Source of the DNA: Rhodospirillales bacterium
GTDB lineage: Bacteria; Pseudomonadota; Alphaproteobacteria; SP197
Direction: 5' to 3'
Length of the DNA: 64,000 bases
NCBI GenBank assembly: GCA_014323865.1
Contig: JACONG010000016.1
Coordinates: 19,685-83,684 of the forward strand
Shown here: piece by piece, positions 25,332-59,169 of the stretch
How the letters are laid out: the number at the start of each line of letters is the position of its first letter
Position numbering within the stretch: position 1 is the stretch's first letter
Position numbers and translations under genes: made by a program
Notes under the pieces: model-generated
The model's input: the letters and a program-made list of their open reading frames with translations, nothing else
Database searches by the model: none
Told to the model about the DNA's origin: nothing

Positions 25332-26045
25332 TCAGCCGTCGCGCAGGTTGAGGAAGCCCTGCAGGGCATGCGGCGCATAGGCGCGGGCCTTGGCCAGGAA
25401 GTCCCTGTAACTGGCATCGATACGCTGGCCGATGTCGTCCTCGGTGCCAAGTTCGGCGACGACCTCGGCGGTCTCGCTGCACAACCGGTCAACGACCGCA
25501 TCGGGGAAGGCACGGACATCGACGCCAAGCTCGGCAAGCTGCGGATAGGCCTCGGCGTTGTGATAGGCGAAGTCGCTCAGCGCCTGCTCGGTCGCCGCGG
25601 CAGCCGCGGTCTCGACCATCGCCTTGAAATCGTCGTCGATCGCATCCCAGGCGGCGCACCCGATGGCAACCTCGATCATGGCCGAGGGTTCGTGCCAGCC
25701 CGGCATGTAGTAGATCGGCGCCCACTGGTAGAGGCCCATGGCGATGTCGTTCCAGGGTCCGACCCAGTCGGCCGCCTGCTGGCCGGAGGTGCCACTGAAG
25801 AACGGGACCAGGCCAAAGCCATCGTAGAGCTCCCGCCAGAGCGCCATGCCTCCGCCATGACTGAGCCAGGCGGCCGACTCGGTCGTGGTCAGGCCGAACG
25901 GAATGGCGCTGAAGAAGAAGTTGAACGCGGCATGCCGATCCACCCAGAAACAGGGCGAGCCGTGAAACAGCTCCACCCGACCGTTGAGGACTGCATCGAA
26001 AGCCTCGAACGGTCCGGCGATCAGGCGGCGGCGTGAGACGGACAT
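25332..26045 (-). pseudogene. TRAP transporter solute-binding protein DctP, internally deleted
   Basis: 237 codons remain of an approximately 360-residue periplasmic DctP. The start (Met-Ser-Val-Ser-Arg-Arg-Arg-Leu-Ile-Ala-Gly) looks like a Tat leader, but it jumps straight into mid-protein sequence (Phe-Glu-Ala-Phe-Asp-Ala-Val). A second in-frame junction near 25770 joins Gln-Gln-Ala-Ala-Asp-Trp to Val-Gly-Pro-Trp-Asn-Asp, removing roughly 60 residues that normally hold the substrate-contact Arg (the Arg-Met-Pro-Gly-Leu-Gly segment). The C-terminus is intact. No DctQ or DctM genes are nearby. The frame is open, but the protein cannot fold as a binding protein. Confidence 0.75.
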
Positions 26046-26118
26046 GGCGTGGGCTCCAGCAGGTCAGCGATCGGCATAGTGCCCAAAGGTTGGGCGACCC
26101 GTCACGCAGACAATCGCA

Positions 26119-26970
26119 TCAAGTCCAGGGGCCCGACTGCCCCGCCATCGCACACAGGCGTCGGATGCGTTCCGCGGTCTTCGGGTGGGTGCTGAAGAGC
26201 CCGTCGATCTTGTGAGCGTGGAGCGGGTTGATGATGAACATGTGCGCGGTGGCCGGGTTGGCTTCGGCGCGTTCGTTATCAATACCGCGGGCGCCGCGAT
26301 CAATCTTCTCGAGTGCGGAGGCGAGCCACAGCGGGCGGCCGCAGATTTCCGCGCCGATGGCGTCGGCCTCGTACTCGCGAGAGCGGCTGATCGCCATCTG
26401 CACCATGGCGGCGGCCATGGGCGCCAGGATCGCCATGGCAAGCACGCCGATGATGCCGAGCGGCGAGTTCCGGCTGCCGCCGAAGAACATGGCGAAGCTC
26501 GCCAGCATCGAGAGTGCGCCCGCCATGGTGGCCGTGATCGTCATGATCAGCGTGTCGCGGTTCTTCACATGCGCCAGCTCATGCGCCATCACGCCTGCGA
26601 CCTCCTCGGAGCTCAGCATGCGCAGGAGGCCCTTGGTCGCCGCGACCGCGGCGTTGTCGGGGTTGCGGCCGGTGGCAAAGGCATTCGGCTGCAGCGTGTC
26701 GATAATGTAGACCCGTGGCATCGGCATCCCGGCATTGCGCGCCAGCTGCTCGACAATGCCGTGCAGCTCCGGCGCGGTCTTGCGATCGACCTCGCGCGCG
26801 CCGTGCATCCGAAGCACCATCTTGTCGGAGTTCCAGTAGGCGAAGAAGTTCATGCCCGCAGCGGCGACGAGCGCAACGAGAATCCCGCCTTCGCCGCCCA
26901 TCAGGAAGCCGCCGACCAGCAGGATCGCGGTCAAGGCGGCCATCAGCATGAAGGTCTTGGCGTGGTTCAT
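26119..26970 (-). CDS. htpX: Zinc metalloprotease HtpX
   Basis: A membrane-bound M48 protease for quality control of misfolded membrane proteins. About 283 residues: two N-terminal membrane helices (about 5-60), catalytic zinc motif His-Glu-Leu-Ala-His in Val-Met-Ala-His-Glu-Leu-Ala-His-Val, two further hydrophobic segments, Glu-Tyr-Glu-Ala-Asp with the third zinc ligand, and the C-terminal [12 protein letters not shown]. The ATG at 26970 starts the first membrane helix; another at 26985 adds five residues. Confidence 0.93.
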
Positions 26971-27044
26971 TGGCAATTCCGACATATTCAATCCAGAATG
27001 TGGGGACGCAGGACCGGGACCTTCAAGATCGAGAGCCCGAGACG

Positions 27045-27380
27045 ATGGCTGATTCGAACACGACCGACGATGAACGCCGCAAGGCGGAAGTGGCGCGCCT
27101 GCGCGCGGCCGAACGTTCCACCACACCGGAGGCTTACAACGTCAAGAGCAAGCCCCAGGTCACGGTCGACCCGATGTCTGGCGCCGGCGATTCCTACGGC
27201 ACGCTGTTCGGCTCCTGTTTCGCCGGCTCGACCAGCTGGCGCCAGCACCTAGCGACGGCCATGCAGCTGGGCACCTATGGCTTGGCCCATATCGCGCTGA
27301 TCCTGAACGTCGCCCAGTGCGAATGGTGGTATGAGCCCGGCATGTACGGCGGTCCGCCGGAGTACGGCAGCAGCCGCTGA
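27045..27380 (+). CDS. Hypothetical protein
   Basis: A 111-residue protein with a charged N-terminal half ([12 protein letters not shown]) and a C-terminal region with a weak hydrophobic helix ([11 protein letters not shown]) followed by a Tyr/Gly/Pro-rich end. I do not recognise the family. It is divergent from htpX with a 74-nt gap. The ATG at 27045 is chosen because upstream codons fall in the htpX promoter region. Codon use looks like that of its neighbours. Confidence 0.5.
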
Positions 27381-27439
27381 TCGACGCTTCTCTCCGATCA
27401 ACCTTCGTGCTGTGATCCCCTGCAACGGGAGACAGCAGC

Positions 27440-28213
27440 ATGAGCACGCAACTCTTCGATCTCACGGGCAAGGTGGCGGTGGTCACGGGCTCAGGGCGCG
27501 GCCTGGGCCGTGCCATGGCCACGGGTCTGGCGGCGGCCGGCGCGAAGGTGGTGACCGCAGGCCGCACGGCTTCCGACGCCGAGGCGACAGCGGCCGAGAT
27601 CCGCGAGGCGGACCATGACGCCCATGCCATTCCGTTCGACGCATGCAGCCGCGCCGAGAACTGCCGGCTGTTCGACGAGACCATCGCGCACTTCGGCCGG
27701 CTCGACATCGCCGTGGTGAACCACGGCATCGGACGCGCGAAGCCAGCGGTCGAGGTGACCGACGACGAGTTCGCCGAGATGATCGACATCAACCTGAAGT
27801 CCGCCTTCGTCTGCGCCCAGGAGGCCGCCCGACGCATGGTCGCACAGGGCACGGGCGGCGCAATCGTCTTCACGTCGTCGACCGGCAGCCTGGTCGCCTT
27901 CGACCAGCTCTCGACCTATGGCGCGGCCAAGGGCGGCGTTGACCAGATGTGCCGCCACTTTGCCCAGGAGCTCGCGCCCCAGGGCATCCGCGTGAACGCC
28001 GTGAACCCGGGCTACATGGAACACCACATGCGCGGCGCCACGGGCCGCCACGAGACAGCGGAGATGGCCGAAGAGATCCGCCGGACAACACCCATGGCCC
28101 GGCGCGGCCGGCCCGAGGAGATGGCGGGTCCGGTGATCTTTCTTGCGTCTGATGCCGCGAGCTTCGTGACCGGTCACATCCTGCCGGTCGACGGCGGCTA
28201 CGTGGCGATCTGA
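27440..28213 (+). CDS. SDR-family NAD(P)-dependent oxidoreductase (1 of 2)
   Basis: A 257-residue classical short-chain dehydrogenase: cofactor motif Thr-Gly-Ser-Gly-Arg-Gly-Leu-Gly, structural Asn-His-Gly-Ile-Gly, catalytic Ser in Thr-Ser-Ser-Thr-Gly-Ser, Tyr-Gly-Ala-Ala-Lys (Tyr/Lys pair), and Asn-Pro-Gly-Tyr plus C-terminal Pro-Val-Asp-Gly-Gly-Tyr. Similar to 3-oxoacyl-ACP or gluconate dehydrogenases; the substrate cannot be told. It is in tandem with a second SDR (60-nt gap), sharing the same overall pattern, probably an ancient duplication. RBS GGGAGACAG. Confidence 0.85.
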   Translation: MSTQLFDLTGKVAVVTGSGRGLGRAMATGLAAAGAKVVTAGRTASDAEATAAEIREADHDAHAIPFDACSRAENCRLFDETIAHFGRLDIAVVNHGIGRAKPAVEVTDDEFAEMIDINLKSAFVCAQEAARRMVAQGTGGAIVFTSSTGSLVAFDQLSTYGAAKGGVDQMCRHFAQELAPQGIRVNAVNPGYMEHHMRGATGRHETAEMAEEIRRTTPMARRGRPEEMAGPVIFLASDAASFVTGHILPVDGGYVAI

Positions 28214-28273
28214 AGAGGGCGACTTATGCCTCTGGCTCGCTCCTGGCTGGTGCCGCAATCTCCAAAGGAAACC

Positions 28274-29068: not shown

Positions 29069-29192
29069 CCCTCACCCTCTTGCAAGCGGGAGAGGGGATT
29101 CGCCGGTATCTCGTTCTGCGACCCCTCGCCCCTCGGGGGAGAGGGCAGCGGAGACTTGGCGGAAAACCCGCCTGGTCGGAGCCGGGTGAGGT
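29069..29192. repeat. Intergenic inverted-repeat element flanked by CCCTCACC/GGGTGAGG
   Basis: Starting right after the second SDR stop, a CCCTCACCCTC end and a GGGTGAGG end bracket about 120 bp containing two internal hairpins (CCCTCT..AGAGGG and a C/G-rich one near 29130). Elements of this composition occur between genes in many GC-rich proteobacteria. It may serve as the 3' end of the SDR operon. Confidence 0.55.
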
Positions 29193-29194
29193 GG

Positions 29195-29660
29195 CCTCTT
29201 CCTCATCGGGGTTCCGGAAGCTCTCGATCTTCGCCTGCTGCTCGGCCGAGAGCACGGTATCGGTGGTCAGATGCGGCAGGCTGTGGAGGCCGTCGAACCG
29301 GGTGCGTTTGCTTTCAGCGCCGAAGGCGCGCGCGGGCGACACGCGATCGGGCTCGTCGAGGGACCCACAAGGTGAAGCCGATCCAGCTGTCGCCGTCGAA
29401 CCGAAACCAGAGCGGCGTGCCGCAATCACTGCAGAAGCCAGGCGTCATGATGCTGGAACTCTTGAACAGCTTGGGTTCGCCGTGAGTCCAGGCAAAACCG
29501 CAAGCCTTGACCGCGGCATAGGCAGCGATCGGCCCGCCCATCGCCTTCTGGCACATGCGGCAGTGACAGACATGCGGGTTCACGGGCTTGCGGTAGATTT
29601 CCTGACGCACGGCGCCGCACTGGAAGCCACCAGTCAAGACGGCGGGACCGACGCGCTTCA
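29195..29660 (-). pseudogene. GFA-domain (Mss4-like, zinc) protein, frameshifted
   Basis: The minus strand encodes a GFA domain: Thr-Gly-Gly-Phe-Gln-Cys-Gly-Ala-Val-Arg, Cys-His-Cys-Arg-Met-Cys-Gln-Lys, Gly-Phe-Cys-Ser-Asp-Cys-Gly-Thr, with zinc-binding cysteines intact. A one-base frameshift near 29365 separates Trp-Ile-Gly-Phe-Thr-Leu-Trp from the expected C-terminal Ser-Leu-Asp-Glu-Pro part. There is no start codon of its own: the frame runs in from the upstream membrane-protein remnant. Likely inactive. Confidence 0.75.
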
Positions 29661-29882
29661 CGACGATCTCGTCGACCTGTCCGGCAAGCCAGACGATGCC
29701 GTGGAACATCGGCAGGCACAGAAGCCCGCCCACCAGCAGTTGCCAGCCTTGTGCTGCTGCCACAAGTCCTCCGGTGCGTTCGCAAAGGCCTCGACAAAGC
29801 CGAACAGCCCGAAGACGAAGATCATCCCCCGGATCAGCGCGACCAGCACCAGCGGGATCCAGATCCAACGGCTGAGTTCCAT
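29660..29882 (-). pseudogene. Small membrane protein remnant upstream of GFA gene
   Basis: From the ATG at 29882 the product begins Met-Glu-Leu-Ser-Arg-Trp and has a membrane helix (Leu-Val-Leu-Val-Ala-Leu-Ile-Arg-Gly-Met-Ile-Phe-Val-Phe). The coding then shifts frame near 29735, where the second hydrophobic segment (Leu-Leu-Cys-Leu-Pro-Met-Phe-His-Gly-Ile-Val-Trp) lies in another frame and runs into the GFA relic without a stop. It was probably a two-helix protein of about 90 residues. Confidence 0.55.
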
Positions 29883-29992
29883 CGTCAGGTCCCTCTTTCG
29901 TGCTGTATCGGGGCGCGTTCCCTTGTCGCATCCAGAACCGAGGCACGCTTCTGCGGCTCCAGTCATGCGGCGATGATCCGGTCGATCGCAAG

Positions 29993-30302: not shown

Positions 30303-31118
30303 TCACCCCTCCCGCGCCAGATAACGCCCCGGCGTTTCGCCGAGCGACCGGCGGAACATGGTGATGAAGGCGCTGGGGCTGTCGTAGCCCAGGTCGAGCG
30401 CAACGGTGGTGACGGGATCGCCCGCGGCAAGACGTTCGATAGCGGCCTGGAGGCGGCGGCGCTGGCGCCAGGCGCCGAAAGTCATGCCGGTCTCCTTCTG
30501 GAAGAGGCGCGCGAGCGTGCGTTCGCTGGCCCCGGCTTCCTGCGCCCAATCGCCAAGGTCGCGTCGGTCGCCGGGATTGTCGATCAGGGCCTGGGTGACC
30601 GACGCCAGCCTTGCATCATCGGGCAGCGGCAGATGGAGCGGCTCGGGTTTCAGGCGGCGAAACTCGTCGGGCACGACCGCGACCAGGCGGGCCTCGGGAC
30701 CATCGGACGGATAAGCCCGGCCGAGCGCGACGACCTTCAGGATCAGCTCGCGAAGGAAGGGCGAGACCGAAAACACACTGCAGGTCTGCGGCAACCCCTC
30801 GGTCACGCTGGGGTCGAGATAGAGCGAACGCATGGCCACCTCGCGCAGTGCCAGCACGGCATGTTCGGTGCCCGCCGGGACCCAGACCGCCTGCTGTGGC
30901 GGCACGATCCAGGTACCGCTGCGCGTGCGCACGGTCATGACCCCCCGGATGGCAAACAGGAGCTGGCCACGCAGATGGTTGTGCCAGCCCGTATCGTAGG
31001 CCACCTCGTCGCGGGCGAAGCCGAGGACCGGCAGGGCGGGATCAAGCACCTCACCGGGGTCGAAGCCGTCGGGATACAGCAGGGTGGGCTGGCCGGGGCG
31101 TTGTCCTTTTTGCGTCAT
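30303..31118 (-). CDS. AraC-family transcriptional regulator
   Basis: 271 residues: an N-terminal cupin-like sensor domain (about 25-120, with His-Asn-His-Leu-Arg-Gly-Gln-Leu) and a C-terminal pair of helix-turn-helix motifs (about 165-265, Ser-Glu-Arg-Thr-Leu-Ala-Arg-Leu-Phe and Leu-Gly-Tyr-Asp-Ser-Pro-Ser-Ala-Phe). The type that lacks a large sensor often regulates a divergent transporter; here a divergent MFS gene begins 98 nt away, making it the probable target. The effector is unknown. Confidence 0.88.
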   Translation of the reverse strand: MTQKGQRPGQPTLLYPDGFDPGEVLDPALPVLGFARDEVAYDTGWHNHLRGQLLFAIRGVMTVRTRSGTWIVPPQQAVWVPAGTEHAVLALREVAMRSLYLDPSVTEGLPQTCSVFSVSPFLRELILKVVALGRAYPSDGPEARLVAVVPDEFRRLKPEPLHLPLPDDARLASVTQALIDNPGDRRDLGDWAQEAGASERTLARLFQKETGMTFGAWRQRRRLQAAIERLAAGDPVTTVALDLGYDSPSAFITMFRRSLGETPGRYLAREG

Positions 31119-31215
31119 TGGTTGTCAGTCTAACGCAAGACGGGCAGAGGTGAACGGGCTATCCATTCATCACTGGCGTTTCCCGACGCTGCGACCAAAC
31201 GAGAAGGTCTCCGAC

Positions 31216-32460
31216 ATGGCTCGCACATCATCGCTCTTCGCCGACTGGCATGGCGTCCTGAAGGACGGCTGGCGCAGCCCGCAGATTCTGCTGCTGGTCT
31301 TTGCCGCATCGATTCCACTGGCCTTCGAGCCCTGGATGGCGCTGATCAACAACTTCGCGGTCGACGAGGTGAACTTCACCGGTCTTGAGCGCGGCATCCT
31401 GGAATCCGTGCGCGAGATCCCCGGTTTCCTCGCCTTCACCGTCGTCTACATGCTGCTGATCTGGCGCCAGCAGACCTTCGCCATCCTGGCGCTCACCATC
31501 ATGGGTCTGGGCGTGGCGCTCACCGGGCTCCTGCCCTCGGTCTGGGGCCTCTATTTCACGACGCTTCTGATGTCGACCGGCTTCCACTACCTCGCGACAA
31601 TGGAGCAGTCGCTTGCCATGCAGTGGACCGACAAGCAGCAGTTGCCACTGGTGCTGGGCCGTATCGCCGCAGTCGGCTCGATCGGCTCGCTGATCGCCTA
31701 TGCCCTGGTTTATGTTGCCTTCGAGTTTCTCGAGTCGCCCTATTGGGTGGTCTACCTGATCGCCGGAACAGCGACGATGGGCCTCGGCGTCTTCTGCTGG
31801 CTCTTCTTCCCGAAGTTCAACGAGGACAGCTACCAGACCGCCAGGATCATCGTGCGCAAGCGCTACTGGCTCTACTACGCGCTCGAGTTCATGTCGGGCG
31901 GCCGGCGCCAGATCTTCGTCGGCTTCGCCGCCTTCCTGATGGTCGCCGAGTTCGGCTACCGGCCCGAGGCCGTGGTCGCGCTGTTCGCCGCAAACCACAT
32001 CATCGCCGTGTGGCTCGCCCCACGCGTCGGCCGGCTCATCATGCGCTGGGGCGAACGGCCCGCGCTGATCCTGGAGTACATCGGCCTGATCGGCGTCTTT
32101 GTCGCCTACGCCTTCGTCGAGGTCGCCTGGATGGCCGCCGCGCTCTACATCATCGACCACCTGTTCTTCGCACTCGCCATCGCGATCAAGAGCTACTTCC
32201 GCAAGATCGCCGACCCGTCGGACATTGCCTCGACCGCCGGCGTCTCGTTCACGATCAACCACATCGCCGCGGTCACCATGCCCTGGATGCTGGGTCTGAT
32301 CTGGGTCGCCGACGAGGATGGCCGCATGGCCGTCTTCCTCGTCGGTGCCGCCATGGCCTGCATGTCGCTGGCGCTCGCCCTGATGGTTCCGCACCGCCCC
32401 GAGCCCGGCCAGGAGACCACGGTCTGGCAAAGCGGCGTGGCGCGACAGGCGGCGGAGTAG
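31216..32460 (+). CDS. MFS-type transporter
   Basis: A 414-residue integral inner-membrane protein with about 11-12 hydrophobic helices. The first follows Pro-Gln-Ile-Leu-Leu-Leu-Val-Phe-Ala-Ala, and later ones include Ile-Ala-Ala-Val-Gly-Ser-Ile-Gly-Ser-Leu-Ile-Ala. A central charged loop (Lys-Phe-Asn-Glu-Asp-Ser-Tyr-Gln-Thr-Ala-Arg) separates two six-helix halves, as in major facilitator proteins. The ATG at 31216 has an AGAAGG RBS. It is divergent from the AraC regulator, so an exporter or importer under its control is likely. Substrate unknown. Confidence 0.75.
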   Translation: MARTSSLFADWHGVLKDGWRSPQILLLVFAASIPLAFEPWMALINNFAVDEVNFTGLERGILESVREIPGFLAFTVVYMLLIWRQQTFAILALTIMGLGVALTGLLPSVWGLYFTTLLMSTGFHYLATMEQSLAMQWTDKQQLPLVLGRIAAVGSIGSLIAYALVYVAFEFLESPYWVVYLIAGTATMGLGVFCWLFFPKFNEDSYQTARIIVRKRYWLYYALEFMSGGRRQIFVGFAAFLMVAEFGYRPEAVVALFAANHIIAVWLAPRVGRLIMRWGERPALILEYIGLIGVFVAYAFVEVAWMAAALYIIDHLFFALAIAIKSYFRKIADPSDIASTAGVSFTINHIAAVTMPWMLGLIWVADEDGRMAVFLVGAAMACMSLALALMVPHRPEPGQETTVWQSGVARQAAE

Positions 32461-32512
32461 GCAGGCGGTTGTCGGCCATGGTGCAGAGTTCCCCGCAACA
32501 GGCGGCGGCACC

Positions 32513-32650
32513 ATGGGCGCTTCTCTCCGGGACAAGACCGCACTCGTGACCGGTGCGGCAAGCGGCATCGGTCGGGTGATGCCGGTGATGCCGGCGCCTT
32601 CACAACCGGCCAGGCCCTGGGACGTCAATGGCGGCTCGGCGATGCCCTGA
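32513..32650 (+). pseudogene. SDR gene reduced to its two ends by an internal deletion
   Basis: The first 21 codons from the ATG at 32513 give a perfect SDR start (Lys-Thr-Ala-Leu-Val-Thr-Gly-Ala-Ala-Ser-Gly-Ile-Gly-Arg). Only about 15 codons later the sequence matches an SDR C-terminus (Thr-Thr-Gly-Gln-Ala-Leu, then after one extra base Asp-Val-Asn-Gly-Gly-Ser-Ala-Met-Pro and a stop). About 200 codons are missing, including the catalytic Ser-Tyr-Lys. A 3-hydroxybutyrate-dehydrogenase-like ancestor is likely. Confidence 0.8.
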
Positions 32651-32729: not shown

Positions 32730-33630
32730 ATGGCTCATCGGTCTTTCATCCGGCCCGCGGTTTTTCTACTCATCGGTCTGCTTATTGGCGTCTCGCCGGC
32801 GGTCGCGCAGAATGGTGCTGCAGTATCATCAGTGGCGGAGCTTGAGGAGCAGCTAGAGAATCTGCGCAAACAGATCAATGATGCCAAGAATACTCCTGTT
32901 CTCGTCAAGATCCGCGATGACGCCAGCGGTTTCCAGTCGAAACTTAAGAGGGCGGCTGACGATGCAGAAGATCGATTTTTATATCTTCAAAGTGATCGGG
33001 AAAAAATCAGTTTTTTGGAAGACGAAATCGACTGGTATATGGATGAAATCGAAGATATTGAAGACGAAATCAGTTTTTTGGAAGACGAAATCGACTGGTA
33101 TATGGATGAAATCAAAGATATTGAAGACAAAATTATGCAGAATGAAGCACAGATTGCAGATATTGGGGGGGCGTGATGTCACGGAGACAGCGCTTAACGC
33201 TCTTCGGTCTGAACGGGCCAAGATTGCAGAACTTGGCGATGCATTCAAGCTTATCTTGAAGCAGATCGAAATTCGGAATGGCGAAATTATCGCCAAAGAG
33301 AACTTCCGCTTATGGGTTGCTGGTGGCTTCGGTTTGCTGGTGGCCCTTCTGATCTTTGGCCTTTTGTTGGTCGCCTTATTCAAGAAGGACATGGCGAATG
33401 CCATCTTCGGAACCGGTTCGGGACTGCAGTTTGTTGCCCTGTTTCTCATCCTGATTATCGTCGGCATGTTCGGCGTGTCGGAGATACTCGGGGACAAGGA
33501 ACTCGCGGCTATTCTGGCCGCGATCGCCGGCTATATCCTCGGCCGCTCGCAGACCGGAACCGACACGACTCAGAATGGCGACAGCGGCACGCCACAACCG
33601 GCCCCCGGCAATCCGGCCTCCGGCAGTTAG
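32730..33630 (+). CDS. Coiled-coil membrane protein split at a G7 tract (possible phase variation)
   Basis: Signal peptide (residues 1-27, ending Ala-Val-Ala-Gln), then Glu/Asp-rich coiled coil. A 63-bp tandem repeat (33004-33066, 33067-33129) encodes two copies of Ile-Ser-Phe-Leu-Glu-Asp-Glu-Ile-Asp-Trp-Tyr-Met-Asp-Glu. In the sequenced state translation ends at 33176, after 148 codons. Past a G7 run at 33165-33171, the next frame stays open to 33630 and continues the coiled coil into two hydrophobic helices (about 33310-33390 and 33425-33490) and a polar Gly/Pro tail. That part has no plausible start codon. Loss of one G would give a 299-residue protein. GC is lower than in neighbours. Family not recognised. 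Confidence 0.65.
33004..33129 (+). repeat. 63-bp tandem repeat, two copies, in coiled-coil gene
   Basis: Two adjacent in-frame 63-bp units that differ at only two positions (Glu/Lys and the last base). They encode a 21-residue coiled-coil unit. Near-identity implies recent duplication. Confidence 0.9.
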
Positions 33631-33663: not shown

Positions 33664-34765
33664 CTATCCCTTCGCCGTCTCGTAGAGGGCGTTGGCCAAG
33701 ACGCGGCAACCGGCCGCGAGACCGGCGGGCGTGGCGCGTTCGTCCTCGTTGTGGCCGATGCCGCCGGTGCTGGGCACGACGATCATGCCCGTGGGGCAGC
33801 ACGGCACCATGGACCTGGCGTCACGATCGGCACCCGACGGCATGGCCATCGCGGGAATGCCGGGTTCGCCCGCGATCCGCTCGACCGAGGCGATAACGCC
33901 GGGGTCAAAATCGGCGGGATCGCCCGCATGACGGCGCGAGACCGAAACCTCGCAGGGGCTTGCGTGGGCCGGGCGGAAAACTCGCGTTCCGGATGGCGGA
34001 AGCCGATCGTGAAAACCACCTTGCCGGGGATCGTGTCGGGCGACCCCGGATAGGCTTGGAAGCGACCCCACGGTGAAGCGCACCGTGTCCGTGGGATCGG
34101 CGAGATCCCGATGTAGCGCGTCGATGATGGCGTGTGCCGAGCGGAAGGCATCGCGCCGCTGGCCAAGCGGCACCGTGCCGGCGTGACCGTCGATGCCAGT
34201 CACCCTGACCTCGAAGCTCGAACCGCCCTGGATGCCGGTGACCGCACCCACCATGAGACCCTCGCTTTCGAGCCGGGGGCCCTGTTCGATATGAGCCTCG
34301 ATGTATCCCGCCATCGCGATCCCGCCGCACCGATGTTCGGCATCCGGTGTCACGGCAACAAGCGTGCGTTCGAGTTCGTCCTTCAGCACCGCACCGTCCG
34401 GAGCGGTAGCGTCCCACAGCTCCTCGATTGTGTGTCTGGTGGAGAACACAAGGCTTCCGGTACAGCCGGGTGCATAGCGGCAGCCTTCCTCGTTGGCCCA
34501 GACCACCGCCTCGACCGGGCGGCGGTGCCCGAGCCCACCGGCGGGCTGCGTGTCGAGATGTGAGCCCGACCGACAGCACGGCCTCGGCGTCGGGGCCGTC
34601 TTTGCGCACGAAGAGATTGCCGGCCTCGTCGGCGATCAGGCGAAAGCCGCGTTCGGCAGCCCAACCGGCCAGCGTGGCGCGCGCCTTGCCGTTATCCTCG
34701 GTGAGTGCCTGGCGGTTGACCCCGCCATTGCCAGTCCTGCCGAACTCGGCGATCCTGATTCGCAA
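33664..34765 (-). pseudogene. M20-family amidohydrolase (N-carbamoyl-amino-acid hydrolase/allantoate amidohydrolase type), broken
   Basis: Five blocks of an M20 hydrolase can be followed in three frames. The start, near 34765, is Met-Arg-Ile-Arg-Ile-Ala-Glu-Phe-Gly-Arg-Thr; Ser-His-Leu-Asp-Thr-Gln-Pro-Ala-Gly-Gly needs removal of one inserted base; then Val-Val-Trp-Ala-Asn-Glu-Glu-Gly; then Gly-Gly-Ser-Ser-Phe-Glu-Val and Asp-Gly-His-Ala-Gly-Thr-Val-Pro; two more frame changes follow near 34080 and 33950 before an intact C-terminus. About 30 residues between Gly-Gly and the Trp-Ala-Asn-Glu-Glu block are deleted, including the bridging Asp-Gly of the metal site. Nonfunctional. Confidence 0.85.
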
Positions 34766-35380: not shown

Positions 35381-36028
35381 ATGGCCAAGGCCGCGCCCAT
35401 CACCCGGCGCGCGCTGAAAGCCCTGATGAAGCGCTCGAATGTACCAGCGCTGATGCGCCTGCCGCTCTGGCTCGGCCTGCTCGGCTGCACGGGCACACTG
35501 ATCCGGCTGGCGATGGGCATCTGGTGGATGGTAACGGCGATGTTCGTGCACGGCATGGTCATGGTTCGTCACTTCTCGCTGCAGCATGAGTGTATCCACT
35601 TCACCTGCTTCCGCACCCGCAGGGTCAACGAATGGGTGGCGCACTGGTGCGGCCTGGTGATCTGCGATCCGGCGATCTACTTCCGCTGCGAACACTGCGA
35701 CCACCATACCCAGGTCGTGGGCCGCGATCCCGAGCTGATCCCCCTAGCCGACAGCGTCTGGGGCCACCTCGAACCGGACGACATCACGCCGGTCAAACAT
35801 GCGGGCCGCCGGCTTGCCGTCTACAACGCCACCGACGCCCGCCGCAGTCATGGCGGCGCCGATCTCTGCGACGGCTATCTCGACGGCCCCCTGATCGAAG
35901 GCCCCCTGCACCAAGGCTTCTTCGACATCCACACCGGAGAAGCCAGGGGCCGACCCGCGACAAGACCCATCAAGGTGCTCACGTGCCGCGTTCACGACGG
36001 CATGGTGCGGATCAGGTCTGAAGGATGA
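35381..36028 (+). pseudogene. Chimera: fatty-acid-desaturase N-terminus joined to a Rieske ferredoxin lacking its cysteines
   Basis: The first 130 residues are a membrane desaturase with two helices and the boxes His-Glu-Cys-Ile-His and Glu-His-Cys-Asp-His-His. The third His box and second membrane pair are missing. From about 35773 the protein switches to a Rieske-type ferredoxin (Asp-Ile-Thr-Pro-Val-Lys-His-Ala-Gly-Arg-Arg-Leu-Ala-Val-Tyr). The expected Cys-x-His and Cys-x-x-His ligands read Arg-Ser-His and Gly-Pro-Leu-His: both histidines remain and both cysteines are replaced, so no 2Fe-2S cluster can form. A deletion between two genes best explains it. Confidence 0.8.
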
Positions 36029-45774: not shown

Positions 45775-46350
45775 TCAGTCCGATCCCTTCAGGGTGTTGC
45801 GCAGGATGTCCGCATCCGCGCTCCAGACCTCGCCACCCTGGATGATCTCGCGCGTCGTCACGGGCTCGCCGTAGTAGGCCATGTTGGCATCCTCGTCGGG
45901 GATCAGAAGGGTTCCTTCGATTGAAATGCCGATGAAGAGCCCGTCGCCCGTTCCGTACGCGTGGATGTCGTCATCGAGATCCGTCGACGTGGTCGCCGTC
46001 TCGACATCGGCACCCGCAGGGCCAGCCTGCAGGCCGACGCTGGCCGAACCGACATCCGGGAAGGCCGGGTAGCTCCGTTCGCCGGTGTTGACGTCGCACG
46101 CCAGGATTACGGCGCGGCAGACCTCGCCACCAATGATGAAGCCCGCCTTGACGAGCTGCGGGATCACCACAACGCCGTGTGTCCGATCGAGCAGGCTGCG
46201 CAGATTCTCGACGTCGGGATCCGAAACCAGCTCGAACGCGGTATAGGCGGCATCGTCCACCACCATCTGCTCCTTGTCGGCGTGCGCCTGCATTGGCGCC
46301 AGAAGCAGAACGGACAAGGCCAAAACCGACGCAACGAAACGGTTGGTCAT
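45775..46350 (-). CDS. SYLF/Ysc84-domain secreted protein with a shortened domain
   Basis: 191 residues with a signal peptide (ending Gln-Ala-His-Ala). The SYLF-like region has [13 protein letters not shown], Gly-Ser-Ala-Ser-Val-Gly-Leu-Gln, and [13 protein letters not shown]. Normal SYLF domains have about 30-35 more residues between the Val-Gly-Leu-Gln strand and the Gly-Pro-Ala-Gly-Ala strand (the stretch ending in Ala-Gly-Ala-Asp); here they are joined directly. The gene lies inside the cob operon between cobO and cobQ with a 15-nt gap and 1-nt gap. Its link to B12 is unknown. Confidence 0.65.
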
Positions 46351-52341: not shown

Positions 52342-52377
52342 CCGACCTCCCTCCGAGGCACGCTGGGTCCAAGGGCG

Positions 52378-52548
52378 GAACGGGGAGGTCTCCTGGCTCC
52401 GGATTGCAGACCACCGAGGCCCCTTCCCGGGCGGCGTCTTCATGCGCCGTCCAGTGGGATCGTGCCTCGCGTCTCACCGTTACAGTTGCGGGGGCAGCGC
52501 CGGCTTGGGAGCGAACTCCGCACCGGCTTCCCTCGTCACGTTCCAAGG
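52378..52548 (-). promoter_or_regulatory. Cobalamin (AdoCbl) riboswitch
   Basis: The minus strand shows the conserved class I elements in order: a GAAGCCGGTGCG-type paired entry, GCGCTGCCCCCGCAACTG (B12 box partner), GGTGAG, a CCACTGG, and GCCAGGAGACC close to the end. It is 40 nt upstream of cobP. AdoCbl binding normally hides the RBS or promotes termination, so high B12 should lower cobP-W-N-O-SYLF-cobQ expression. The other cob groups show no such leader in this window. Confidence 0.95.
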
Positions 52549-52701
52549 GACTTCGTTTATCAGAGTTGCCGACCGAGTACCAAGGAGATTAGGCGACGTG
52601 GTGGTTTCCGCAGATGAGAACAAAAAACGAATTGCTTCTACGCGTATGCCCTGCGATCCTTCTGTTTGGTGCAAGGATTGGCGGATTAGAGCGGATTAGA
52701 A

Positions 52702-53364
52702 ATGCACTCCGAAAACTCAGTTCATGCTGCTAGCGAAGATCTCCTCCGATTTGTTGGAGAACAGAAATTCTCGACAATCTTGGCCGATCCTCCTTGGCGG
52801 TTCGTGAATCGAACCGGAAAGATGGCACCAGAGCATCGACGCCTGTCGCGCTATGAAACCTTATCAACAGAGGAGATTGCGACACTGCCTATCAGTAAAA
52901 TATCACAACCGACTGCACATCTCTATCTTTGGGTCCCGAACGCCTTACTTCCTGAAGGTTTGATAGTGTTGGATGCGTGGGGATTCAATTACAAGTCGAA
53001 TCTGATTTGGCATAAAATCAGGAAAGATGGCGGTTCAGATGGACGTGGCGTTGGCTTTTACTTTAGAAACGTCACAGAGATGCTGCTTTTCGGGGTAAGA
53101 GGAAAGAATGCGCGCACACTTCCTCCCGGTCGTCGCCAAGTGAACATGGTCCAAGCGCGAAAACGCGAGCACTCACGCAAGCCTGACGAGCAGTACGCGA
53201 TTATCGAGGAATGCAGTTGGGGCCCCTTTTTAGAGCTGTTTGGAAGGGGAGAGAGAGATGGTTGGTCCACTTGGGGCAACCAGGCTGATTCAAACTATCA
53301 GCCCTCTTGGCCAACTTACAGTTACAACTCGACAAGAATTCTGGAAGTCGAGGACCCAGTTTAG
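52702..53364 (+). CDS. MT-A70-family DNA adenine-N6 methyltransferase
   Basis: A 220-residue MT-A70 methyltransferase. Catalytic Ala-Asp-Pro-Pro-Trp-Arg-Phe (about 29-35) and the later Val-Thr-Glu-Met-Leu-Leu-Phe-Gly-Val-Arg-Gly, Ser-Arg-Lys-Pro-Asp-Glu-Gln-Tyr and Phe-Gly-Arg-Gly-Glu-Arg-Asp-Gly-Trp motifs are intact. The gene has clearly lower GC and different codon use from its neighbours and sits in a 1.3-kb island between the riboswitch and cobC. The convergent partner, probably a restriction enzyme, is broken, so the methyltransferase is now an orphan. Weak RBS; ATG directly follows GGATTAGA. Confidence 0.88.
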   Translation: MHSENSVHAASEDLLRFVGEQKFSTILADPPWRFVNRTGKMAPEHRRLSRYETLSTEEIATLPISKISQPTAHLYLWVPNALLPEGLIVLDAWGFNYKSNLIWHKIRKDGGSDGRGVGFYFRNVTEMLLFGVRGKNARTLPPGRRQVNMVQARKREHSRKPDEQYAIIEECSWGPFLELFGRGERDGWSTWGNQADSNYQPSWPTYSYNSTRILEVEDPV

Positions 53365-53771
53365 ATATCTTCTACATAGAGAGCGTCTGTAATAGCGAAG
53401 GTGAAAACCGGGCATCCACCACCTCCCCCTCCATCGAGTCTTGGCCATAATTTCGTATGGTGCGTAGTAGATGCCCCGTACGAGCTACCCTTGCCGAGTG
53501 AGTTAAATATATCTTGATAGTCGTACCGAACTGCTTCTCTTCCCATTCTAGCTAGATCGTAGAATGTGCTATCAATCCGCTTTGCAATTGGAGATTTTCA
53601 TCCATCTGGTGCGATGATTTCAGACTTGAGCAACTTGAACTCTCTTAGAACCGTGAGAATCTGTTCCCACTCTTCCGGACAAGCGGCTGCGAGGACACCG
53701 GTCGCGTTTCGCCATTCTTTGATTAGGTATAAATCGGCGATATCTTCTGGGATCAGGTGAGTGGTGCTCAT
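53361..53771 (-). pseudogene. Degenerate partner of the MT-A70 gene, BglII-type restriction endonuclease-like
   Basis: From the ATG at 53771 an N-terminal piece (Ile-Pro-Glu-Asp-Ile-Ala-Asp-Leu-Tyr, then Ile-Ala-Pro-Asp-Gly) ends at a TGA (53598-53600). Past that, the same frame continues Lys-Ser-Pro-Ile-Ala-Lys-Arg-Ile-Asp-Ser, then jumps to a C-terminal block (Gly-Ala-Ser-Thr-Thr-His, Gly-Gly-Gly-Gly-Gly-Gly-Cys-Pro-Val) that recalls BglII/BstYI-like endonucleases. About 137 codons remain against roughly 190-220, so the central catalytic region is gone. The family call is from memory of motifs. Confidence 0.6.
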
Positions 53772-53830
53772 TTCGAGAACATCCCAGCATATGAGTGGCA
53801 TTAGCGAGAAGATCGCAGGAGACACAACCT

Positions 53831-54451
53831 TTAGTCAAGGTGGGGCTGTCGGTTCATGTAGACGACGCGCCAGTTTTCGGCATGGCCGTCGTCGCCCGTG
53901 AAGTGGTCGATACGGGTGACCGAGATGTTGTCGGTCGCGAATCGGAGGCCGGTCTCTGGGTCGAGATTGAGCGCCAGGGCCAGGGCCGCGCGGATGGTTC
54001 CGCCATGGGCCACGGCGATGATGTCACGTCCGGCCCATTCCTCGGTCAGCCGGTGGATCACGCGGGTCACCCGCACGCAGAGATCGGCGAAGCTCTCGCC
54101 ATTGGGCGCAGGATAGGTCGCGGGCGCGATCCAGAAGCGCCGGGCGGTCGGCAGCGCATAGACCTCGTCATAGGTCAGCCCATGCCAGTCGCCGAAGTCC
54201 TGCTCACCCAGGCCCGGCTCCTCGGTCGGCGCGATCACACGCCCGCCGGCCGCCGCGATCGCGGCGGCGGTCTGCTTGGTACGCTTGAGATGGCTTGTCA
54301 CCCAATGGGCTTCAGTCGGCAGGATCGCATTTAGCGCTTGGTAGGCTGGCGGATTGTCGGTGTCGCAGTTCGGGTCGGTCGAACCATAGACACGACCATT
54401 GGTCTCGGTCACCGGCGCATGACGCACCCACCACCATCTCGTCTGGGTCAT
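53831..54451 (-). CDS. cobC: Histidine phosphatase, probable alpha-ribazole phosphatase CobC
   Basis: A 206-residue phosphoglycerate-mutase-like phosphatase. The active-site Arg-His-Ala (in Trp-Val-Arg-His-Ala-Pro-Val-Thr), Gly-Glu-Gln-Asp-Phe-Gly-Asp-Trp-His-Gly-Leu and Ala-His-Gly-Gly-Thr-Ile-Arg are conserved. CobC dephosphorylates alpha-ribazole phosphate (or cobalamin phosphate) at the end of the pathway, and its neighbours are cobS and cobT. It follows cobS by 88 nt on the same strand. The second position of the usual Arg-His-Gly is Ala here. Confidence 0.8.
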   Translation of the reverse strand: MTQTRWWWVRHAPVTETNGRVYGSTDPNCDTDNPPAYQALNAILPTEAHWVTSHLKRTKQTAAAIAAAGGRVIAPTEEPGLGEQDFGDWHGLTYDEVYALPTARRFWIAPATYPAPNGESFADLCVRVTRVIHRLTEEWAGRDIIAVAHGGTIRAALALALNLDPETGLRFATDNISVTRIDHFTGDDGHAENWRVVYMNRQPHLD

Positions 54452-55455: not shown

Positions 55456-56481
55456 ATGACGATCACCAGCTTCGACGACATCCGAGACCGCGTGCGCGCC
55501 ATGCCGGGCGCCGACGCCGAGGCGATTGCAGCGGCCCAGGCGCGCGATGCGGAACTGACCAAGCCGCCCCGTTCGCTCGGTCGCCTTGAGCAAATCGCGC
55601 TGTTCCTGGCCGGCTGGCAGGGACGGCACCCGCCTTCGGTCGATCGGGTATCGTTCATGGTCTTCGCCGGCAACCACGGTGTGACGGCTCAGGGCATCTC
55701 GGCCTTTCCGGCCGCGGTGACCCATCAGATGGTGGCAAACTTCGAGACCGGCGGGGCGGCGATCAACCAGCTCGCCAGGCTCGCGGGCACCGACCTCACA
55801 GTGATCCCGCTCGAGCTCGACCGGCCGACCGGAGATTTCTGCGCCGGACCGGCCATGACCGAAGCCGAGACCTGCGCCGCCTTCAGCACCGGCTACGACG
55901 CCGTCGGCGAGATCGACCTCGCCTGTATCGGCGAGATGGGAATCGGCAACACGACGGTGGCCGCGGCCTTGGGCGCGGCACTCTTCGGGGGCCGCGGCCG
56001 GGACTGGGCGGGTCCAGGAACCGGGCTCGATCCCGAGGGCGTGGCGCGCAAGGCCGATGTCATCGACCGCGCGCTGGCCCTTCATGCCGAGCGCCTCGCC
56101 GATCCGCTCGCGGCACTGGCGTGCCTGGGCGGGCGCGAGATCGCAGCCATGGCGGGGGCGCTTCTGGCCTGTCGTATGAAACACGTGCCAGTGATCCTCG
56201 ACGGCTTCGTCAACGGCGCGGCGGCGGCCGTGCTGAAGCGGCTCGACGCCGGCGCGCTCGACCATTGCCTCGCCGGACATCGCAGCGCCGAACCGGCAGC
56301 GGGTCGTTTGCTCGGCCACCTCGGCATGGCCGACGGCGACGAACCGCTGCTCGATCTCGGCATGCGCTTGGGCGAAGCCTCCGGTGCGGCCACGGCCGCG
56401 CTTCTGGTCAAGGCGGCGGTCGCCACCCACAACGGCATGGCGACCTTCGCGGAGGCCGGGGTCGCGGGCAAGGACGCCTGA
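55456..56481 (+). CDS. cobT: Nicotinate-nucleotide-dimethylbenzimidazole phosphoribosyltransferase CobT (CobU)
   Basis: 341 residues making alpha-ribazole phosphate from dimethylbenzimidazole. Conserved Lys-Pro-Pro-Arg-Ser-Leu-Gly-Arg-Leu-Glu, Ala-Gly-Asn-His-Gly-Val-Thr, Gly-Glu-Met-Gly-Ile-Gly-Asn-Thr-Thr and the C-terminal Leu-Asp-Leu-Gly-Met-Arg-Leu-Gly-Glu-Ala-Ser-Gly are present; catalytic Glu is expected near the C-terminus. The ATG at 55456 gives the canonical length. The next gene, mmcB, follows after 4 nt. Confidence 0.95.
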   Translation: MTITSFDDIRDRVRAMPGADAEAIAAAQARDAELTKPPRSLGRLEQIALFLAGWQGRHPPSVDRVSFMVFAGNHGVTAQGISAFPAAVTHQMVANFETGGAAINQLARLAGTDLTVIPLELDRPTGDFCAGPAMTEAETCAAFSTGYDAVGEIDLACIGEMGIGNTTVAAALGAALFGGRGRDWAGPGTGLDPEGVARKADVIDRALALHAERLADPLAALACLGGREIAAMAGALLACRMKHVPVILDGFVNGAAAAVLKRLDAGALDHCLAGHRSAEPAAGRLLGHLGMADGDEPLLDLGMRLGEASGAATAALLVKAAVATHNGMATFAEAGVAGKDA

Positions 56482-56485
56482 GACC

Positions 56486-56923
56486 ATGACCGACTCAGGT
56501 GAGGAACGCGCCGCCATCGGACTCGCCCGCGGCATCGGCCGGATGTTCGAGGCCATCAGCCAGGCGAGCCTCACCGAGTTCACGGTCCGCAGCGGAAGGC
56601 GCGCCGATGTCATCGCGCTCGATGCCAAGGGGCGGTTCACCATCGTCGAGATCAAGACCTCGCTCGCCGACTTCCGCGCCGATACCAAGTGGCCGGAGTA
56701 CCTCGACTTCTGTGACTTCTATCTCTTTGCCGTGCCCGAGGACTTCCCGCAGGAGGTTCTGCCCGACCACCACGGCCTAATCGTGGCCGACCGCTTTGAC
56801 GCCACCATCCTGAGGCCGTCGCCGGAGGCACCGATGAACGCCGCGCGGCGCAAGAGCCAGACCCTGCGGTTCGCGACACTCGCCGCCCGCCGCCTGCGCC
56901 AGCTCACCAATCCCGAGGTCTGA
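56486..56923 (+). CDS. mmcB: MmcB family DNA repair protein
   Basis: A 145-residue alphaproteobacterial MmcB/COG5321 protein: Arg-Ala-Asp-Val-Ile-Ala-Leu-Asp, Val-Glu-Ile-Lys-Thr-Ser-Leu-Ala-Asp-Phe-Arg-Ala-Asp-Lys-type (here Asp-Thr-Lys-Trp), and Phe-Leu-Phe-Ala-Val-Pro style strands of a PD-(D/E)xK-like fold. It is linked to mitomycin C-induced damage repair. Only 4 nt after cobT, so co-transcribed. Confidence 0.85.
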   Translation: MTDSGEERAAIGLARGIGRMFEAISQASLTEFTVRSGRRADVIALDAKGRFTIVEIKTSLADFRADTKWPEYLDFCDFYLFAVPEDFPQEVLPDHHGLIVADRFDATILRPSPEAPMNAARRKSQTLRFATLAARRLRQLTNPEV

Positions 56924-56926
56924 CCG

Positions 56927-57150
56927 TTACTCAATGTAGGTGGCATGACTCGCCGCGGGTGCCGCCTCGGGCGGTTCACCACCCGCGGCAAGCGCAGCCG
57001 CCGCAGCGATCAGGGCCTGACACTGCGCGAGATCGAGGCCCTCGCGCATGGCTTTGGTGACACAGTCGCAATAGGCCAGCCCCTTCACCAGCACGACGCC
57101 ATGCTGGTCGGCGACCACCCGCTCGAACACTGCACGCGTCACGATTCCTG
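56927..57150 (-). pseudogene. C-terminal remnant of an unknown protein
   Basis: The minus strand ends at 56927 with an Ala-rich tail after a conserved-looking stretch (Val-Val-Leu-Val-Lys-Gly-Leu-Ala-Tyr-Cys-Asp-Cys-Val-Thr-Lys-Ala-Met). About 70 codons look coding, then the plus-strand Rieske relic begins at about 57140. I do not recognise the family. Confidence 0.35.
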
Positions 57151-57618
57151 GTTTCTCGACTTCGACGCCAACTAAAAGATCTACCTGGAGAACTACGTCG
57201 AGAGTGATCACGTGTCCTCGGTCCATCCAGCCTTGAACGCCGAACTGGTGCCCTGCACCTTCACGACCAAGGCCGGCGGCCTCTACGAGGGTCTGTGGAA
57301 CTGGACCTGGCCGGCCTTCACATTGTGCTCTTCCACAGCGGCTACGACGTCAGCCGCATCTGCTCGCTGGGCCCGGAGAAGACGAGGGTTCACTTCGACT
57401 TCTTCGTCGATCCCGAAGCCGGCCTCACGGATGACCAAAAGGCTGCCACCTCGAAGGGCGTGCACGACCTTGTCGCCGAAGACACGGCAATCAGCGAAGC
57501 CGTCCACGCCAATCTCACCTCCGGCGTCTTCCCCGGCGGCTCCCTCGGCGCAAGGCACGAAGAAGGCATCGCCCCACGTGATGGGGGCATGAGGGTGAAG
57601 GTGGAGACGACGGGGTGA
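57140..57618 (+). pseudogene. Rieske oxygenase alpha-subunit catalytic domain, broken
   Basis: The plus strand carries Phe-Leu-Asp-Phe-Asp-Ala-Asn, a stop where Trp is expected, then Lys-Ile-Tyr-Leu-Glu-Asn-Tyr-Val-Glu-Ser-Asp-His-Val and His-Pro-Ala-Leu-Asn-Ala-Glu-Leu (iron ligands of the mononuclear site region), Gly-Leu-Tyr-Glu-Gly-Leu-Trp-Asn-Trp-Thr. A frame change near 57300 leads to the C-terminal Gly-Pro-Glu-Lys-Thr-Arg-Val and Gly-Val-Phe-Pro-Gly-Gly. The N-terminal Rieske domain is absent. Confidence 0.8.
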
Positions 57619-58218
57619 CTACCCCCATGCTGCCCGGATTTCGTCCTTGTGCAAGGCGAGCCAGAGGACCGGAACCACCGTGTTGGCGGCGACGATGCGG
57701 CCGTCTTCGACCATGGCGAGGGCCTCGTCGAAGGGCATGGTGTGAACCTTGATGTCCTCGTGTTCGTCGGCGAGGCCGTGGTAACCATCGGCGGTGCTGC
57801 TGTCGGCCTCGCCGATGAAGACGTGGAGTTCCTCGGTGACGGCCCCGCAGCTCGGCAGGAAGGCCATGATCTTGCGGAGATGGCCGAGTTCGAGGCCAGC
57901 CTCTTCCATCGCCTCGCGGCGGGCGACCTCGTCGGGCTCTTCGCCCGGCTTCATCGCGCCGGCAATCGCCTCGATCAGCCAGGGCGGGGCCGTGGTCTGG
58001 ATAGCGGCGACGCGGAACTGCTCGACGAGGACGACTGTGTCGCGGGCAGCGTCATAGGGCAGCACACAGGTCGCGGGACCGCGATCGAAGACCTCAATCC
58101 CGTGCTCGTCCGACCAGGTGCCGTCGTGCCGTTCGTAGCGCACATGCCAGCGGTCGGCGCGGAAGTAGCCGCTGTAGAGCTCCTCCTTGCGCACGATTTC
58201 GAACGTCTTGTCGCTCAA
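57619..58218 (-). CDS. NudF-type ADP-ribose pyrophosphatase (Nudix)
   Basis: About 199 residues with a perfect Nudix box (Gly-x5-Glu-x7-Arg-Glu-Ala-Met-Glu-Glu-Ala-Gly-Leu) starting near residue 95, and the NudF-like N-terminal beta strands with Val-Leu-Val-Glu-Gln-Phe-Arg-Val. It hydrolyses ADP-ribose to AMP and ribose phosphate. The likely start is TTG at 58218, 10 nt after GAGGAGG inside the macrodomain relic. The frame also stays open through that relic to 58434, so the earlier macro C-terminus is in frame with it. Confidence 0.75.
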   Translation of the reverse strand: MSDKTFEIVRKEELYSGYFRADRWHVRYERHDGTWSDEHGIEVFDRGPATCVLPYDAARDTVVLVEQFRVAAIQTTAPPWLIEAIAGAMKPGEEPDEVARREAMEEAGLELGHLRKIMAFLPSCGAVTEELHVFIGEADSSTADGYHGLADEHEDIKVHTMPFDEALAMVEDGRIVAANTVVPVLWLALHKDEIRAAWG

Positions 58219-58650
58219 AGGATAAAGGCCCTCCTCGGCCAAAGCGTCCCGGTAGTGCTCGGTATCAGCCGCACCGAAACAGCACAAGGTGACAATGATC
58301 GGCGTCTCCGACCGGGTAAAATAGCCGATGACCTCTTGAAGGGCGATGCGAAAGGCACACGCGATGGGAAACCCGTAGACTTCCGGTCGAGATCGAAGGG
58401 AAGGCGAACGACGCGAGATCGTGGTCTTCGGCAAGCGCCAGGCTGTTGCGGTAGAAATCGGCCAGAAGCCGGTCCTCGTCGTTTGCGCCGTCGCGCCAGA
58501 CCGGGCCCACCGTATGGATCACGTGACGCACCTTCAGGCTGAAGCCGGGCGTGATCACCGCCCGGCCGGTGAAGGCAGCCGTCGGTCTGACGGCAGGCCG
58601 TCATCAGTTCCGGCCCCGCCGCACGGTGGATCACGCCATCGGCCAGACGC
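58219..58650 (-). pseudogene. Macrodomain (MacroD-type) remnant spread over three frames
   Basis: Pieces of a macro domain in order on the minus strand: Asp-Gly-Val-Ile-His-Arg-Ala-Ala-Gly-Pro-Glu-Leu, then (frame change) [12 protein letters not shown] and Phe-Pro-Ser-Ile-Ser-Thr-Gly, then (frame change) Val-Tyr-Gly-Phe-Pro-Ile and the terminal Val-Thr-Leu-Cys-Cys-Phe-Gly. The N-terminal part with the ADP-ribose loop Asn-Ala-Ala-Asn is missing: the domain begins where a Rieske-oxygenase end leaves off. It directly precedes NudF, whose substrate ADP-ribose is the product of macrodomain chemistry. Confidence 0.75.
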
Positions 58651-59169
58651 AAACGATGGGCGCTGCGGTAACCCTGCATCATCGGCTCCAGCATGAAGCG
58701 GTCCCCCGCCGATGGTCTCGTGGAACAGATCGACGGCGCGGTCGACCGCGCTCTGTGGCCACTGATCGCCCCAGAACAGGAGCCCCGCCTCGTAACGCAC
58801 CTGGTCGGTGCCTTCGGGCTGCAGGCAGAGGGCTGTAGTCGGCAGCAAGGCCGATACCGCTGCCCGGCTGCATCATCGCCATGATGCAGGTGTTGGACTG
58901 GTCCTTTGTCAGGTGCGGATGACGCCGTCGCAGCCGTGGGTGATCACCATCGGCTCTTTCGCCAGCCGGTAGGGCATGAACTGGCCGGGCCCGGCGAGCT
59001 TCTCGACCCGGCCGACGCAGTGCCATTCCTTCTTGAAGAGATGCTCGACCTCGAGCGCCAGAAGATCGGGAGCGGTGTAGAAATCCGCGTGCATGGTCCA
59101 GGCCCGGTCGTGGCTCGATTGCAGGGTGCCCTCAAGCGCCGCTTTCACCCTGGCAAGCCCCTCGGTCAT
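58650..59169 (-). pseudogene. Rieske oxygenase alpha subunit reduced to its two ends
   Basis: From the ATG at 59169 an intact N-terminus (His-Ala-Asp-Phe-Tyr-Thr-Ala-Pro-Asp-Leu-Leu, Lys-Lys-Glu-Trp-His-Cys-Val-Gly-Arg) runs 87 codons to a stop at 58909. Then comes a C-terminal block (Ala-Leu-Cys-Leu-Gln-Pro-Glu-Gly-Thr-Asp, Phe-Trp-Gly-Asp-Gln-Trp and, after a frameshift in a G5 run near 58710, Met-Gln-Gly-Tyr-Arg-Ser). The Rieske cluster motifs and the iron site are deleted. It fuses into the macrodomain remnant. Confidence 0.8.

Follow-up and report, generated by a model that had tools for sequence, protein, structure and literature searches.

Genomes midway between full size and a reduced state are known best in host-bound bacteria. 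In insect endosymbionts, early gene loss is described as proceeding by small deletions (Delmotte et al. 2006, PMC1544356), and among Salmonella pseudogenes with a single lesion, short deletions are given as the commonest class, 141 of 346 (Kuo and Ochman 2010, PMC2916853). For neutral sequence, border-induced selection is described as acting against deletions that protrude past conserved borders (Loewenthal et al. 2022, PMC9748784). Here we examine broken accessory genes lying between cobalamin (cob) and other conserved genes in a 64,000-nucleotide stretch of a Rhodospirillales bacterium, referred to below as the window (contig C16, 19685-83684, of the draft genome G000); coordinates are those of the window unless otherwise stated. 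The comparison with same-genus genomes suggests, with a probability of roughly 0.85, that ordinary reductive decay is removing dispensable genes for uptake and catabolism from the G000 lineage, and that the losses call for no special mechanism of excision.

Genes Broken in G000 and Whole in Its Relatives

The G000 genome comprises 2,820,038 bases in 18 contigs and is 99.88% complete; at 2.82 megabases (Mb), it is smaller than nine genomes of the same genus, G001-G009, which measure 3.5-4.5 Mb. In a tree of CobN, from which G006 was left out and in which G009 has 40% of the columns, G000, G005, G008, G009, the pair G002/G004 and the group G001/G003/G007 join at one unresolved fork. Blastn and global alignments showed that the window is colinear with G004 (contig C72) and G002 (contig C2) between 25 and 63 kilobases (kb), and with G005 (contig C4) from 27.4 kb onward. 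Proteins of the relatives were mapped onto the window to find missing gene pieces. We found that, as compared with the colinear same-genus genomes, pieces were lost from 12 genes within 25332-59169, and from an FAD-linked oxidase gene outside this span. Every gene that a first-pass annotation of the DNA had named as broken indeed shows missing pieces against the proteins of the relatives. The main relics and junctions are as follows, with deletions in base pairs (bp) and protein lengths in amino acids (aa).

12536-13040, minus strand: relic of an FAD-linked oxidase, lying outside the span; residues 274-332 and 361-462 of 463 remain; G002 and G009 have the whole gene
25332-26045, minus strand: DctP (TRAP solute-binding) relic; 237 aa as compared with 364 in G004; 165 and 192 bp lost, both in frame
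29196-29646, minus strand: GFA-family enzyme relic; +1 frameshift at about 29367; start removed by a deletion of 452-464 bp
32433-32511, no strand: PhyH junction; 1807 bp with the PhyH gene gone as compared with G004; whole in G004/G002, G005 and G009
32511-32650, plus strand: SDR relic; first 20 residues fused to the last 22 or so; 607 bp lost as compared with G004
33667-34753, minus strand: M20 hydrolase pseudogene; changes of -31, -66, -26, -1, +1 and +3 bp as compared with two to four other lineages
35381-36028, plus strand: fused desaturase-Rieske open reading frame (ORF); N-terminal 132 or so residues of the desaturase plus Rieske ferredoxin; deletion of 571-577 bp, with 6 and 18 bp also lost
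45775-46350, minus strand: SYLF/Ysc84 protein; exactly 35 residues missing, with the frame kept; no relaxation of constraint detected
56924-57103, no strand: permease junction; at least 1.66 kb (as measured on G004) gone, which takes away an amino-acid permease gene and the oxygenase start
57104-57573, plus strand: Rieske oxygenase relic; residues 170-339 of 351, the N-terminal 169 residues lost; 39 bp deletion and -1 frameshift
58222-58640, minus strand: relic of the macrodomain gene; matches residues 37-173 of the G009 gene (174 aa), spread over three frames
58656-59169, minus strand: second Rieske oxygenase relic; an internal 514 bp gone as compared with G004 and G002, with both ends still present

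The Pfam DctP match in the DctP relic is limited to profile positions 184-281, and only parts of the C-terminal half of the FAD oxidase remain. The macrodomain relic has 36 unmatched N-terminal residues and two frame changes; its ORF (58215-58694) gave no Pfam match, the name having been assigned from sequence alone, and G009 keeps an intact order of oxygenase, macrodomain and NUDIX genes. The earlier description of internal losses with both ends remaining holds for DctP, SDR, the oxygenase at 58.66-59.17 kb, a nuclease described below, SYLF and, with its small deletions, M20; the others keep one end. The relic at 58.66-59.17 kb belongs to a Rieske oxygenase; that of the macrodomain gene is at 58.22-58.64 kb, which corrects the first-pass annotation. 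A junction fusing different genes was found as claimed, the desaturase and Rieske pieces being joined in one ORF. The cob genes and other neighbours between the relics are clean, as had also been stated, aligning to G004 proteins over their full length and in one frame.

Several indel sizes match between lineages: 165 bp in DctP (G004, G002 and G009), 66 bp in M20 (G004, G005, G008 and G009), 39 bp in the 57.1 kb oxygenase (G004, G002, G005 and G009), and 577, 577 and 571 bp at the desaturase-Rieske join. Other sizes are fixed exactly only by the G002/G004 pair or by G004: 192 bp in DctP (G004 and G002 only), 514 bp in the second oxygenase, and 607 and 1807 bp around the SDR. The second oxygenase, SDR and PhyH genes are nonetheless whole in further lineages. 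The 31 bp deletion in M20 reads as 30 bp in two of the four alignments. In G002, mutS lies in six pieces, so that frameshifts of this genome may be sequencing errors, and no frameshift claim relies on G002 alone.

Full forms were surveyed in the fetched DNA of the relatives. M20, the desaturase (in G009 across two contig ends) and SYLF are full in four other lineages; GFA, SDR, both oxygenases, PhyH and the permease, in three; and the FAD oxidase, in two. The PhyH and permease genes are entirely gone from G000. Thus GFA, SDR, M20, desaturase, SYLF, two oxygenases, PhyH, permease and FAD oxidase are same-site genes, whole in several lineages and broken or absent in G000. For the macrodomain gene, G009 alone has a whole copy. 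An intact DctP is present in G002/G004; the copy in G009 has its full length but is split over two frames, and G005 gives a partial match. A DUF2165 gene, a third Rieske oxygenase, an alpha/beta hydrolase and the full form of a 231-aa gene were found in the G002/G004 pair only, and their absence from G000 may therefore reflect gain in that pair.

Excess of Truncated Genes in the G000 Lineage

A census of truncated places was restricted to genes intact in another lineage, with places near stretch ends omitted; within the window, DctP, SDR and M20 escape these criteria. G000 showed 5 truncated places among 58 in the window and 9 among 41 outside it (8 distinct), as compared with 6 of 388 in five relatives (G004 0/71, G002 0/97, G005 3/84, G008 3/68 and G009 0/68). 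When the two overlapping outside places were merged, the difference between G000 (8/40) and the relatives remained significant (p = 6e-6). The outside sample covers about 360 kb of the 2.82 Mb, in hand-chosen stretches, and those of the relatives were found by similarity to G000. With a looser filter, G000 had 15 truncated places and the five relatives had 12 together (G005 6, G008 3, G002 2, G004 1 and G009 0). Coding density outside the window was 0.743 in G000, as compared with 0.778-0.830 in the relatives. Gene loss is lineage-specific in degree and is not confined to the window. The earlier suggestion of a lineage losing genes by deletion is thus upheld as to its strength relative to the relatives and its reach; the distinctive signature attached to it is unsupported.

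Relatives bear scars of the same kind. In G005, an internal deletion (1564 bp missing) relative to window 30548-32113 fuses AraC and MFS remnants, these two genes having been mostly lost there, and a further 801 bp spanning the macrodomain and second oxygenase genes are absent. Outside the window in G000, a hydrolase-like gene at L198:17642-18229, called a metallo-hydrolase by eye, encodes 196 aa as compared with 293 in G004, G005 and G008, with the frame kept and substitution relaxed.

Mode of Deletion

We considered the possibility that a distinctive mutational process, such as a repair defect or slippage between direct repeats, cuts internal, often in-frame pieces out of genes. Clean in-frame losses speak for such a process: 165 and 192 bp in DctP, 105 bp in SYLF, 66 bp in M20 and 39 bp in the oxygenase. 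The hand-compiled list of within-gene deletions in the window holds seven in frame (165, 192, 105, 66, 39, 18 and 6 bp) and seven out of frame (607, 514, 31, 26, 5, 1 and 1 bp), and omits the macrodomain frame changes and the nuclease gap, the sizes of which are not fixed. The in-frame share, 7 of 14, does not differ significantly from one third (p = 0.15), nor does that among deletions of at least 10 bp (6 of 10, p = 0.08); when the hydrolase-like gene of L198 is added, the latter becomes 7 of 11 (p = 0.04). The description of the losses as often in frame is therefore not borne out, and frameshifts of 1-5 bp are also present in the relics.

The retention of both gene ends was compared with a model in which large deletions are placed at random in non-retained DNA, the observed classes being assigned by hand. 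With 11 deletions and 14 dispensable genes, 2.0 genes were expected to keep both ends and 3 were seen (P = 0.33). Without the three genes and deletions attested only by G002/G004, 3 of 11 genes kept both ends where 2.0 were expected (P = 0.31), and 2 were gone entirely where 1.0 was expected (P = 0.21). Since these counts match the random model, the pattern is what random deletions leave.

Direct repeats or microhomology at 13 junctions showed no excess over random position pairs (mean score p = 0.29, lowest single p 0.08), in comparisons with relatives of only about 75% identity, a divergence too great for a strong negative. Of the two families of dispersed repeats seen, neither lies at any mapped junction. 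A repair defect was rejected as a candidate: mutS and addA are intact in G000, which is among the genomes above the cut-off for both (mutS in 9 of 10, addA in 3 of 10), and Ku was found in none of 10 genomes, the control search giving a match in 1 of 14. Taken together with the scars of the same kind in relatives, these results make a distinctive mutational process improbable.

Relaxed Constraint on the Remnants

Changes unique to G000, at sites where two other lineages agree, were counted by codon position in 12 segments from 7 relic genes and in 26 control genes of one window. The ratio of changes at positions 1 and 2 to those at position 3 was 202:165 in the relics, as compared with 934:1400 in the controls (p = 8e-8). 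The same relic genes gave 86:189 in G004 and 100:150 in the third genome, and the control genes gave 914:1567 and 843:1311, respectively. In the controls, G000 showed a mild excess over G004 in this ratio (odds 1.14, p = 0.02). DctP was comparable with G005 only over a short gene call in the latter, and its relaxed count comes from the pooled test. SYLF fell out of the pooled count, having too little alignment, and was tested separately. These data show that the remnants, SYLF excepted, evolve under relaxed constraint. The unconstrained share of the G000 branch was about 0.44-0.47, a rough value that takes position 3 as neutral. Relaxation was uneven, being strong in M20 and hardly present in the second oxygenase, on small counts, and the gene losses look staggered in time.

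These results also bear on whether the shortened genes are functional, as trimmed or fused proteins kept by selection. The DctP and desaturase-Rieske relics are open frames, and SYLF, which lacks 35 internal residues present in G004, G002, G005, G008 and G009, keeps its frame under constraint about equal to that in the relatives. However, the pooled relics show relaxed constraint, frame changes occur in M20, GFA, both oxygenases and the macrodomain gene, and the SDR remnant has only about 42 codons. The same short forms were found in no relative examined, so that the check for short forms shared under purifying selection did not refute the earlier suggestion; G005 and G009 have DctP damage of their own, the gene being weak or frame-broken there. 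We therefore regard functional short forms as a poor explanation of the relics in general; SYLF is likely to be the only kept short form. An assembly or sequencing artefact, in which contigs of this 18-contig draft were collapsed or misjoined at the relic sites, is even harder to credit, and was already doubted in the first-pass annotation, since the lesions lie in dispensable genes while the intervening controls align full length and in one frame to G004, whole copies exist in relatives, several indel sizes agree across independent relatives, and the remnants carry relaxed substitutions, which misassembly cannot produce.

Other Features of the Window

Further sites of gain or loss, and an insertion, are listed below.

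26046-26118, no strand: DUF2165 site; an extra 570-592 bp with a DUF2165 gene in G004/G002; loss here or gain there
26959-27044, no strand: third Rieske oxygenase site; about 1.3 kb more, with this gene, in G004/G002; loss here or gain there
29748-29882, minus strand: first 45 codons of the 231-aa gene, on the far side of the GFA deletion; full form in the G002/G004 pair; no Pfam family
52545-53840, no strand: insertion of 1.2-1.3 kb, lower in G+C, that contains a restriction-modification remnant and is missing from G002, G004 and G005
52702-53364, plus strand: MT-A70/type II methyltransferase within the insertion; Pfam domain complete
53361-53762, minus strand: remnant of a BglII/BstYI-family nuclease; its two pieces match residues 3-70 and 144-195 of a plasmid homologue (215 aa), in the same frame
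57574-57618, no strand: alpha/beta-hydrolase site; about 829 bp more in G004/G002, lost here or gained there; the end of the oxygenase is also missing

The DUF2165 gene was not found in the fetched DNA of G005, G008 and G009. What had been called a restriction-like partner is the remnant of a BglII/BstYI-family nuclease beside an MT-A70 methyltransferase, as presumed in kind; it lies, however, in an insertion. A stop falls within the first piece of the nuclease, and some 70-90 residues are absent between the pieces, as judged from plasmid homologues. The insertion with this type II remnant adjoins a cobalamin riboswitch (52366-52588).

A REP-like element of about 75 bp (window 29111-29200) sits in a stretch of 128-131 bp absent from G002, G004 and G005, and recurs elsewhere in G000 as well as in G009. 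Another repeat, dispersed and about 130-180 bp long, lies at window positions 237-441 or so, at L198:4734-5172 and at other places; it gave a dozen or so matches in G000, and none was found among the matches listed in the nine same-genus genomes. The coiled-coil-like gene at 32733-33630 evolves fast and aligns poorly to relatives; part of it is duplicated internally, and a run of G lies near 33165.

Discussion

Ordinary reductive decay of dispensable genes would account for these data in three steps. The need for these genes may have lapsed first, at dates that differ between genes and average about the midpoint of the G000 branch. Small and mid-size deletions, of up to 1.8 kb, would then accumulate under the usual bacterial deletion bias. 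Deletions reaching into the retained cob, HtpX, MFS or GGT genes would be purged by selection, and with such protruding deletions removed, stumps would survive beside retained genes.

Several observations weigh against this explanation. The G000 branch in the CobN tree (0.14) is no longer than those of G005 (0.17), G008 (0.21) and G009 (0.18), and the rate at positions 1 and 2 of the control genes (0.056, as compared with 0.055 and 0.051) indicates no marked acceleration of core genes. There is no shift toward AT, the G+C content being 0.633 in the sampled G000 DNA and 0.609-0.716 in five relatives, and coding density within the window (0.825) is not low. Neither of the two signs of host-restricted, drift-driven reduction that were looked for, faster core evolution and a shift to A+T, was thus seen in marked form. 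Ring_hydroxyl_A matches are fewest in G000 (19, as compared with 25-53), but per megabase they about equal those in G008; DctP-family matches are not reduced (6, as compared with 2-8 in relatives). The decay of DctP is not confined to G000, as the state of this gene in G005 and G009 shows, and SYLF is shortened, yet its substitution pattern is no more relaxed than in relatives. No repeat signature stood out at the deletion sites against relatives this diverged. Finally, in the model with 11 deletions, in which every large gap relative to G004 is treated as a loss, 1.7 genes were expected to be gone and 5 were seen (P = 0.003). We rejected an excess of whole-gene loss, as three of the five counted genes are known only from the G002/G004 pair and the excess vanishes without them.

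The mechanism itself is ordinary: gene decay caught midway, and unusually legible. For each gene, comparison with colinear relatives reveals the breakpoints, the frame and the age of the loss, which makes drift and selection open to test. It is conceivable, though we hold this only tentatively, that G000 represents a genome-reducing lineage midway without the usual marks of drift, with high G+C, a nearly normal core rate and intact B12 synthesis, the erosion falling on Rieske-oxygenase and uptake genes; the absence of drift marks is read from 26 control genes in one window. If true, G000 and the full-size relatives in its genus would form a natural experiment on shrinkage led by selection, each stump recording the age of its loss and its place in the order. 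In the literature on genome reduction in sponge-linked or free-living alphaproteobacteria, the genus was not named among the matches listed.

The known systems resemble G000 in part. As in the endosymbionts (PMC1544356), loss proceeds in small blocks inside a conserved gene order and takes weakly constrained genes first. The endosymbiont data are whole-gene counts from host-restricted lineages, in contrast to the visible remnants, high G+C and lack of marked core acceleration found here. The turnover of Salmonella pseudogenes (PMC2916853) is alike in that pseudogenes lie between conserved genes and short deletions are the commonest single lesion. Unlike those pseudogenes, 346 of 378 of which carry a single lesion, M20, DctP and both oxygenases in G000 carry several, and constraint on the G000 relics was lost on average about half a branch ago. 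Border-induced selection (PMC9748784) was modelled on human introns and not on bacterial gene remnants; it is alike in that a neutral stretch between conserved borders keeps its edges. In line with that description for introns, retained neighbours may protect the edges of the relics in G000.

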